From an uncultured Ureaplasma sp. (GTDB lineage Bacteria > Bacillota_I > Bacilli_A > Mycoplasmatales > Mycoplasmoidaceae): 64,000 bases of DNA. A model generated the notes under the pieces. The model made no database searches. It was not told the origin of the DNA and saw nothing but the letters and a program-made list of their open reading frames with translations. Where the stretch lies: positions 1-64,000 of the forward strand of contig CAMQYY010000004.1 of the NCBI GenBank assembly GCA_947039515.1, in the 5' to 3' direction. The position numbers and the translations under genes were made by a program. This document shows positions 8,966-62,050 of the stretch, in pieces (positions within the stretch are counted from its first letter, which is position 1; each line of letters begins with the position of its first letter).

Positions 8966-9802
8966 TTAAAATAGATTTTTTTTCTCTGCTTTATTAAATG
9001 TTTTTAATTGTTTTTTAGCATTTTTTGATGCTTTTCTAGAATTCTTAACTAATTTTAACTCAATTATTAAATCACCAATTTTTAAAGGTGTACTATTACC
9101 TCTACCAGAAATTTTAACAATTTTATCAATTGGATGATTTGCTGGAACTACAATATAAACGAAAGTTTTTTCACTTTCAATTCCATAACCTTTACAATTA
9201 TAACAAATATCATTATCAAGTGCATCAGTACCTAATAAACCTTTTCCTCTACAAACACCACATGTTTTGTATTTATATAAAGGAGAAGCAAGTCTAAAAC
9301 CATTTTCTAATTGTTCTTGTGTTATTTCTAAAATTGCTTTTATATTACATTTTTTATTAAAATCCAATTTTTCTTCTTGAGTTAAAAGACTATTTTTTAC
9401 AGATTCTCAAGTATTTTCAACGATAATACCAACAGAAATAGTCCCACCTAATAATTCATCAACATAAGTATTTAATCTAAAACTAGGATCTTCAACATAG
9501 AATTGAAAAGCTAATAATTTACTAGACTTAGATTCGTTACCATATTCTCAATCATAATAAGCTCTTATTTCACGATCACCCAAAATTTGATAACCATCAT
9601 TTAATAAATAGAATTTTTTAATTAATTCTGGATCACTAGTTTTGTCTGGATGTCATTCTCTAGCTAGCTTTTTATATTGATTTTTAATCTCTACTTCTGA
9701 AGCATCTTTTCCAACTTGAAGAATTTTATATCAGTCATATTCAAAAATATCTTTTAAACCACTAAATTTACTAGTTTCATTAAAATCTTTTTCTTTTTCC
9801 AT
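8966..9802 (-). CDS. DnaJ-like protein with a single Cys-motif pair
   Basis: Merged ORF starting MEKEKDFNETSKFSGLKDIFEYDWYKILQVGKDASEVEIKNQYKKLAREWHPDK; only CGVCRGKG and CYNCKGYG. Confidence 0.85.
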
Positions 9803-9879
9803 AACATTTTCCTTAATTATTACCTTTAGTATAACTATGATAATACCATATTATTATTTTTATTTTTAGTAGAGTATAT

Positions 9880-28898: not shown

Positions 28899-29777
28899 AT
28901 GATCACATTTAGTAATAAAGTTAAAAATGAAATTTGCAATATAGATTTTGAAGATGGTTTTAATGATTCAATATTTTTGCTTTTCTATTTTAATAATTCT
29001 CAAGTGAAAATAGATAAAAATTATTATTATATTTTAATCAATAATAAAAACATTCTTTTTCTATTAAAGAAAAAAATTAAAATAGAGAGAAAAGATTTAA
29101 AAATAAAAATTTTAGTCTCAAAAAATAATGAAAAATCAAAATTGTATTTCAATAAATTATTTTTAGAAGGCATTGATTTTAAAAAAATAAATATTGATGA
29201 TGATGTTATTAATAGAAGTATTATTATTGGTGCTTTCTTAAGTAATGGTAGTATTCAAATTTCAGATTTAACGAGCTCATATCATTTTGAAATAAGATCT
29301 AAAAATAAAAAATATTTAGATTTCATTAAAAAAATATTTGAAAAATATTCTATTTTTAGCAAAATAATCAAAAGAAGAAATAATTTTATTTTGTACATTA
29401 AAAAAGCTGAAAGCATTAGTGATATTTTAAAAATAATGAAGTGTATTAAATCTATGTATGAATTAGAAGATTCAAGAATTAGTAAAGACTTTAATAATTC
29501 TTTACAAAGAACAAATAATCTTGATGTTTCAAATATTAATAAAACAATAAAAGCTTCAGCCATTCATATAAAAATGATTAACAAAATAATTGAAAGAAAT
29601 GAGTATGAATATTTAGATGAAAACATTAAATTATTTTGCCAAAAAAGATTAGAAGAACCTGAAGCATCATTACAACAAATATCTGAAATTATGAATACTA
29701 ATCATAATTTAAACTTATCAAAAAGTAATATTTCAAATTACCTTAGAAAAATAAAAAGTATTTATTCTAAATTGTAA
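28899..29777 (+). CDS. whiA: DNA-binding protein WhiA
   Basis: FSNKVKNEICN N-terminus, IGAFLSNGSI LAGLIDADG-like domain, C-terminal HTH RLEEPEASLQQISEIMN. Confidence 0.9.
   Translation: MITFSNKVKNEICNIDFEDGFNDSIFLLFYFNNSQVKIDKNYYYILINNKNILFLLKKKIKIERKDLKIKILVSKNNEKSKLYFNKLFLEGIDFKKINIDDDVINRSIIIGAFLSNGSIQISDLTSSYHFEIRSKNKKYLDFIKKIFEKYSIFSKIIKRRNNFILYIKKAESISDILKIMKCIKSMYELEDSRISKDFNNSLQRTNNLDVSNINKTIKASAIHIKMINKIIERNEYEYLDENIKLFCQKRLEEPEASLQQISEIMNTNHNLNLSKSNISNYLRKIKSIYSKL
29743..29777. repeat. 35-bp direct repeat, left copy (whiA 3' end)
   Basis: TTAGAAAAATAAAAAGTATTTATTCTAAATTGTAA. Confidence 0.97.
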
Positions 29778-30041
29778 AAAATAAATAATTCTATTACTTT
29801 ACATATACTCATTCTGATAATAAGTTAAGGAAGAATATATTTATAAAAAATATTAGGAAATAATTTATTTAGCATATATTAAAGATTAAAGATAAAGTTA
29901 TTTATTCAATAGAATTAGAGAAATTAAAATATACTGGATTTGATTTTAATATTATGTTAATTTTAAATATTAAATAACTAAAAAATAAGATAAAAAAATA
30001 TTTTATAATAAAAATTAAAAGTGATTTAAATTAATTTAAGG

Positions 30042-30707
30042 ATGTATAAAAATATGAATAAAAAATTTTATGAATCTTACAAGTCATTAAATATAAAGGG
30101 AGTAAATTATTTAGAATTATTATCAATAAATTTGCTTAATTGTTTATCAGAAATGAAAGATAAAAGATTAAAATTTTATGAAATTTTTGAATTAGCTAAT
30201 GTTGAAGAAAAAGAATTGGTTGTTCTTTCTTTTAATCATCTACATGAATTATTTTGAGATAATTTTTGTAATTTAATGAGAGATTATTCAAATATTTTAT
30301 ATCAATTATTAAATAAAATAGAAGGTAAAAAAATAATTCCAGTTGAAAAACATTTAAAAATAAAAGAATATATTGATTCAACAAAATTTATTTCTGTTTT
30401 TATGGGAAGTAAAGAATTTACTGCTTTATCTTTAAGTCTACATAATCATAATATATTAGATTATGGTAACTTAAAATATGATGAATCATTTTCTAAATAT
30501 AAGGAATTTGATAATGTTATTCATTATGATATTGATGATATTAGACATGAATTTGAAAACATATTTTTTTTATTTCAAATTATTGATGATAGTAATTATA
30601 ATAATGATTTATCCAATTTCATTAATAATGGTAAACATATTTTTAATATTGAATATTCACCTATATTTAAGATGTTCGATTTCTTATTAAATAAAATTAA
30701 AAAATAA
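30042..30707 (+). CDS. Orphan hypothetical protein within the repeat-bounded unit
   Basis: Continuous frame with one TGA(Trp); MNKKFYESYKSLNIKGVNYLELLSINLLNCL...; no recognised family. Confidence 0.65.
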
Positions 30708-30788
30708 ATTATTATCATAACTTATAATTATTGTTAATTAATATTAAAATAATCTTTAAAATTTTTTAAAAATAATGAAATTTAAAAT

Positions 30789-30823
30789 TTAGAAAAATAA
30801 AAAGTATTTATTCTAAATTGTAA
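30789..30823. repeat. 35-bp direct repeat, right copy (upstream of serS)
   Basis: Identical to 29743..29777. Confidence 0.97.
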
Positions 30824-30849
30824 TATAATCCAATTAGGAGATTTTTAAA

Positions 30850-32127
<1,278 letters not shown>

Positions 32128-42368: not shown

Positions 42369-43046
42369 TTATTTAACTTTTATTTTACTTTTTATTTTTT
42401 CAATTTTAGTTACTTTAACTTTTTCTACTTTAGAAACTTCTTTTGTTTTAACTTTAGATGCCTTAGTATCTTTTGTTGATTCACCTTTTTCAACTTTAGT
42501 TGTTTTAGTAGTTTTTGGTGATTCAATTTTTTCAACTCTAGGTGCTTTAGCAACTTTTGCTGATTCACCTTTTTCAACTTTAGTTGTTTTAGTAACCTTT
42601 GGTGGTTCAATTTTTTCAACTCTAGTTATTTCAGGAACTTTTATTGTTTCTTTTTTAACATTTTCAGTTTTTTCAACTTTAACATTATCTGTTTTTGCAA
42701 CTTTAGTTGTTTTAGTTTTATCAGCTTTAGGTTTAGTTTCTTTTTTAATCTTAACTACCTTTTCAATTTTAGGTTTATTAGCTATGTTATCATTTTTTGC
42801 TTTAATATATTCAGCTCAAATGCCTTCCTTACTAAATAAATTTTTAACAGTTTCTGTTGGAACAGCCCCATTTAATAAAAGTTTTAAAATAGATTCTCTA
42901 TCGAATTTTGAAACTTTTGAAATTGGGTCATAATGTCCTAATTGTTCAATAAATTTTCCATTAGCTTTTGATCTAGCATCTGCTGCTATTAATCTATAAA
43001 ATGGTCTTTTATGTCTACCAATTCTTGTTAGTCTTAATTTTACCAA
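42369..43046 (-). CDS. rpsP: 30S ribosomal protein S16 with long Lys-rich repetitive C-terminal tail
   Basis: TTG start after AAGGAGG: VKLRLTRIGRHKRPFYRLIAADARSK...; reads through TGA into AEYIKAKNDN...KVEKGES tail. Confidence 0.9.
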
Positions 43047-57166: not shown

Positions 57167-57275
57167 AAGAGGCAATTTCCTACTCTCACCTAAAAGGCTA
57201 CAATCGGCCCAACAATGCTTGACTTCTGTGTTCGGTATGGGAACAGGTATTTCCATTGCGATATCGTCACCACAT
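57167..57275 (-). rRNA. rrf: 5S ribosomal RNA
   Basis: Antisense of CGATATCGCAATGGAAATACCTGTTCCCATACCGAACACAGAAGTCAAGC...; follows 23S. Confidence 0.93.
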
Positions 57276-57339
57276 TAATTTTTTTTTCAGATAAATCTCT
57301 GAAAACTGAATATTATCTCAATTTCTTTCCTTACAAGGT

Positions 57340-60245
<2,906 letters not shown>

Positions 60246-60545
60246 TATGAATCCTACTTCTTTTTATTTGTGATCATTTTTGATGATTACTTATTCTTTT
60301 TGTAATTGTTATACATTTTCTTCAAATGTATGACTAGAAAGATTTGTTGATAATATTCAGTTTTCAAAGATCTATCTCTTTATAAAAATTCATTTATAAA
60401 GGAGAGATTTCTCTCTCAAAACTAAATACAACCCGACCTTAACAATATTTTTAAAATTTTTATTAAAACATCTTGATTAAGGATTTTTTTTCTTGTTTAA
60501 GTACACTGTTAAATTTCTGTGTTTGTAAAATTAATTACTCCGTAG

Positions 60546-62050
<1,505 letters not shown>

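Follow-up and report, generated by a model that had tools for sequence, protein, structure and literature searches.

The window analysed here covers the first 64 kb of a contig of 84 kb, which belongs to the 687-kb assembly of a Ureaplasma-like mollicute, in which TGA is read as Trp (table 4). On its plus strand, whiA (28899..29777; 292 aa; Pfam HTH_WhiA and LAGLIDADG_WhiA) is followed by a noncoding stretch of 12.5% GC (29778..30041) that opens a lineage-specific unit, then by an orphan ORF (30042..30707; 221 aa, or 217 aa from the ATG at 30054, with one TGA-encoded Trp) and finally by serS (30850..32127; 425 aa). An earlier note on this DNA had made the same three gene assignments, which are right under table 4. 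The noncoding stretch has no convincing counterpart in the sister species (G003, the nearest genome compared) and no Rfam match; it contains an open stretch of about 32-34 codons upstream of the orphan (29878-29979, LKIKDKVIYSIELEKLKYTGFDFNIMLILNIK), perhaps the degraded terminus of a former gene. Considered for an integron gene cassette, the region gave nothing in a general Rfam scan. A T-box or other RNA leader of serS was discarded as there was no Rfam match, and no tRNA lies nearby as an insertion target.

The orphan reading frame is, by a rough estimate for 17% GC with TAA and TAG as the only stops, far longer than expected by chance. Its start is likelier at ATG 30054 than at 30042, since AAGGAT lies 10 nt upstream of the former. 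Homologues were found neither in 41 close relatives nor in phages, plasmids and viral contigs, while the best match in 395 genomes of the class (E 0.005) consists of short weak stretches and is not credible. In particular, the gene is missing from the entire genome of G003 and from the other genomes searched. Family searches, including Pfam, gave no assignment.

The whiA end recurs downstream of the orphan, as the earlier note had claimed: the left copy (29743..29777) comprises the last 11 codons of whiA, minus a base or so, and the stop, and the right copy (30789..30823, within the serS leader) is identical to it over all 35 bp. Two matches to the 35-mer at up to three mismatches occur in the 64 kb and none in 100 dinucleotide shuffles, and the pair is a real, non-chance structure. 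On its left side the repeat breaks off sharply, for the 20 nt preceding the two copies are 20% identical, below the 36% background; at the right edge the copies diverge immediately past the TAA. A longer decayed copy of whiA to the left of the repeat was considered and rejected, since ungapped identity is at or below background and the gapped signal is marginal; indeed, a BLAST extension of the repeat to 87 bp at 79% needs gaps and is only marginally above the AT-rich background. The search for the same 35-mer proposed in the earlier note disclosed no further copy in the host genome or in five congeners, and the inner 28-mer (at most three mismatches, six genomes) has no other site except whiA of G003 itself. 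In the 262 kb of host genome sampled for repeats, the two members of any other exact repeat of at least 35 bp are at most a few hundred bases apart and resemble internal tandem or coding repeats, and dispersed repeats reach 22-25 bp at most. As had been described, the right copy leads straight into serS leader sequence (TATAATCCAATTAGGAG), and collapsing the two copies leaves a short junction, with 26 nt from the whiA stop to the serS ATG.

Comparison with G003, whose whiA and serS are each 92% identical to those of the host (for whiA at the amino-acid level), shows how narrowly the difference is confined. Window positions 227-57159 (57 kb) align collinearly to a single contig of G003, with a nucleotide identity of about 91% (90.6-92.5%), and the whiA-serS junction is the sole gene-level break in this alignment (window 29797-30723 versus G003:C3 30025-30804). 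Elsewhere there are small indels alone, the largest within aligned blocks being 34 bp, and G003 carries about 90 bp extra between aligned blocks near window 20535. At the junction, G003 has 908 bp where the host has 1072 bp, and in place of the orphan it holds an unrelated gene, 236 aa and cytidine-deaminase-like, whose internal ATG lies 40 nt past whiA. As the orphan is replaced by this unrelated gene, the junction is a variable one-gene slot. The earlier note had read the DNA between the repeats as an acquired module and had suggested a comparison of the junction in relatives. The variability of the DNA stands, with the orphan absent from G003 and the flanks collinear over 57 kb. An empty-site allele was not found among the genomes compared, only two of which have this junction. 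In four other congeners and several family members serS does not lie directly behind whiA, which indicates that the adjacency is derived and leaves no outgroup allele.

The deaminase-like protein of G003 (P0004) carries HAE and PPCSNC, which agree with the HxE and PCxxC zinc motif that is the signature of the cytidine deaminase fold. Pfam PF00383 matches it weakly (E 0.0018, below cut-off) and matches a 43%-identical paralogue in the host above cut-off (E 9e-7). This paralogue lies elsewhere in the genome, in an island that also holds a pair of type III restriction-modification genes, so the family is mobile on this time scale. No remnant of the deaminase was found in the host slot and none of the orphan in the G003 slot. 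Neither cargo has a PADLOC match, and their assignment to a defence system was dropped; a phage or plasmid origin was also rejected, as the orphan has no match in phages, plasmids or viral contigs and the deaminase none in phages. Single-sequence structure models of the two cargo proteins (pLDDT 42 and 41) are unusable.

The serS leader is common to both species from about 30776, where similarity begins in the host with ATGAAATTTAAAA (30776..30788), whereas host DNA from about 29797 to about 30776 is replaced in G003; upstream of 30776 similarity falls to 67%, roughly the gapped AT-rich background. Along the leader, 27 identical bases that end in the 13-mer TTAGAAAAATAAA come first, and a gap of 11 bases in G003 separates them from ATTATAATATAATCC and the ribosome-binding site; the last part of the leader (30824..30849, TATAAT and AATTAGGAG) is identical in G003. 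Of the right copy, G003 thus retains TTAGAAAAATAAA at one end and ATTATAA at the other, whereas 11 bp in between are missing. Near the stop, a single variable position reads G in the host and A in G003, and in either genome the two copies agree at it, which suggests later copying.

Since the right copy is represented in the G003 leader by its two ends but not by its middle, two histories of the duplication come into question: it probably either predates the species split and was rehomogenised in the host, or was extended recently by local copying. The former is favoured. Foreign DNA would first have entered at the whiA stop codon before the split, leaving a copy of the whiA end at its right edge while whiA stayed intact. 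That right copy would then have become part of the serS leader, and the cargo would later have been exchanged, giving the orphan in the host and the deaminase-like gene in G003; recombination between the two host copies would have maintained or brought about their identity. We hold this whole sequence of events, inferred from two genomes in which turnover is seen once, at about even chances. An old duplication explains both conserved ends. Perfect identity, in turn, calls for conversion, constraint or a recent event (or luck), as only about 6-8% of 35-mers stay identical between the two species and an old, untouched duplication would do so at that rate. The regeneration of the whiA 3' end by insertion, proposed in the earlier note, is plausible, and the right-copy ends in G003 also fit later local copying.

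Such copying, as a recent event unrelated to the cargo, is a possible but clearly less probable explanation. On this view, a 13-bp match (TTAGAAAAATAAA) already present in the serS leader would have primed a short template switch or gene conversion, by which about 20 bp were copied there from the end of whiA. This accounts for the perfect identity; the sharp left edge of the repeat coincides with the 13-mer, and the G003 leader has the 13-mer followed by TAATATAATCC without the middle of the right copy. However, for 13 bp to match by chance at just this position would itself be improbable (the 13-mer is expected 0.26 times per 64 kb), and the 7-nt ATTATAA by the stop also matches whiA in G003. 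On balance, recent copying explains the identity and the old duplication both conserved ends, and the latter with homogenisation is preferred.

The repeat could instead mark the breakpoint of a rearrangement that placed serS behind whiA, with the whiA end carried or copied along and the cargo arriving later. The derived adjacency speaks for it, and in G005, another of the genomes compared, whiA and serS are convergent with about 2 kb between them; yet a breakpoint alone leaves the copy beyond the cargo, next to serS, unexplained, and we consider it unlikely.

Slightly more doubtful still is integration by a tyrosine recombinase (the chromosomal Xer in trans, or an integrase since lost) with the whiA 3' end as attachment site. 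A duplicated 3' end is the usual outcome of such integration, each sister genome encodes one tyrosine recombinase, and the outer 6 bp of the 28-bp core of the repeat are inverted repeats. In Ureaplasma, recombinases of this class are suspected to act at short flexible sites, and Xer-type DNA inversions are suspected at surface-antigen loci of Ureaplasma and Mycoplasma (PMC3047005). The slot shares with those inversions short AT-rich repeats and a genome with an Xer-like recombinase, but its repeat is direct, lies at a locus that is not a surface antigen and is unrepeated elsewhere. The unit contains no integrase, as the earlier note had observed, and the sole Xer-like tyrosine recombinase found in the host is on another contig. 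Moreover, no other site was found in six genomes at up to three mismatches, and the dyad is weak, its 9 of 14 pairs being reached by 1.4% of window 28-mers. A site-specific recombinase at the slot is possible but unsupported.

The difference in cargo could also have arisen if an ancestor held both genes and the two lineages each lost a different one. Misassembly at the short repeat is conceivable, but the independent assembly of the sister has the same slot architecture. Replacement of a long homologous stretch as the source of the cargo was rejected on the ordinary identity of the flanks, and a transposon or insertion sequence because no transposase is present and no terminal inverted repeats, the latter having likewise not been seen in the earlier note.

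Among known systems, the slot is plausibly ordinary in kind, an accessory-gene hotspot at a gene 3' end. As in such genomic islets, its flanks are conserved and collinear while the single gene between them differs from one sister species to the other; it differs in the perfect 35-bp copy of the upstream gene end at its far edge, and two genomes represent it. With integrative elements at gene 3' ends it shares a direct, att-like repeat of the target 3' end and regenerated last codons, but the unit is 1 kb with one gene, which has no similarity to integrases, and has no excision functions or second site. Few mobile elements are known from the reduced genomes of mollicutes, and little is understood of the way in which these acquire single genes; the slot offers a modest, testable example of gene exchange in which no recombinase is visible.

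Elsewhere in both sisters, defence-like islands (G000:C1, L105:7991-18001, and L116 of G003:C19) combine type III restriction-modification with DUF262-like genes, and their gene content between a GyrI-like gene and the restriction genes differs between the sisters; two genes of the host island are presumably DUF262 proteins, as read by eye. A direct repeat (L105:6733-6770 and 9772-9809; 25 bp exact, 38 bp at 89%), with no other copy in the sampled DNA, repeats the leader and first codons of the GyrI-like gene at the start of a 231-aa ORF and brackets a unit of 3 kb with the deaminase paralogue in it (about 236742-239806 of G000:C1). Recombinase-free single genes might generally enter mollicute genomes at gene ends, where 25-35 bp of the target end would be duplicated and different genes swapped through the same repeat, a generalisation that is improbable as it stands; the 3-kb unit with its 25-bp gene-start copy is a second candidate for it.

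Two further features of the window may be recorded. An rRNA operon (5S, 23S and 16S, identified by eye) occupies the minus strand at 57170-62050, and the G003 contig stops just short of it. At 42477-42594 lie imperfect coding repeats whose copy number and register differ from those of G003.
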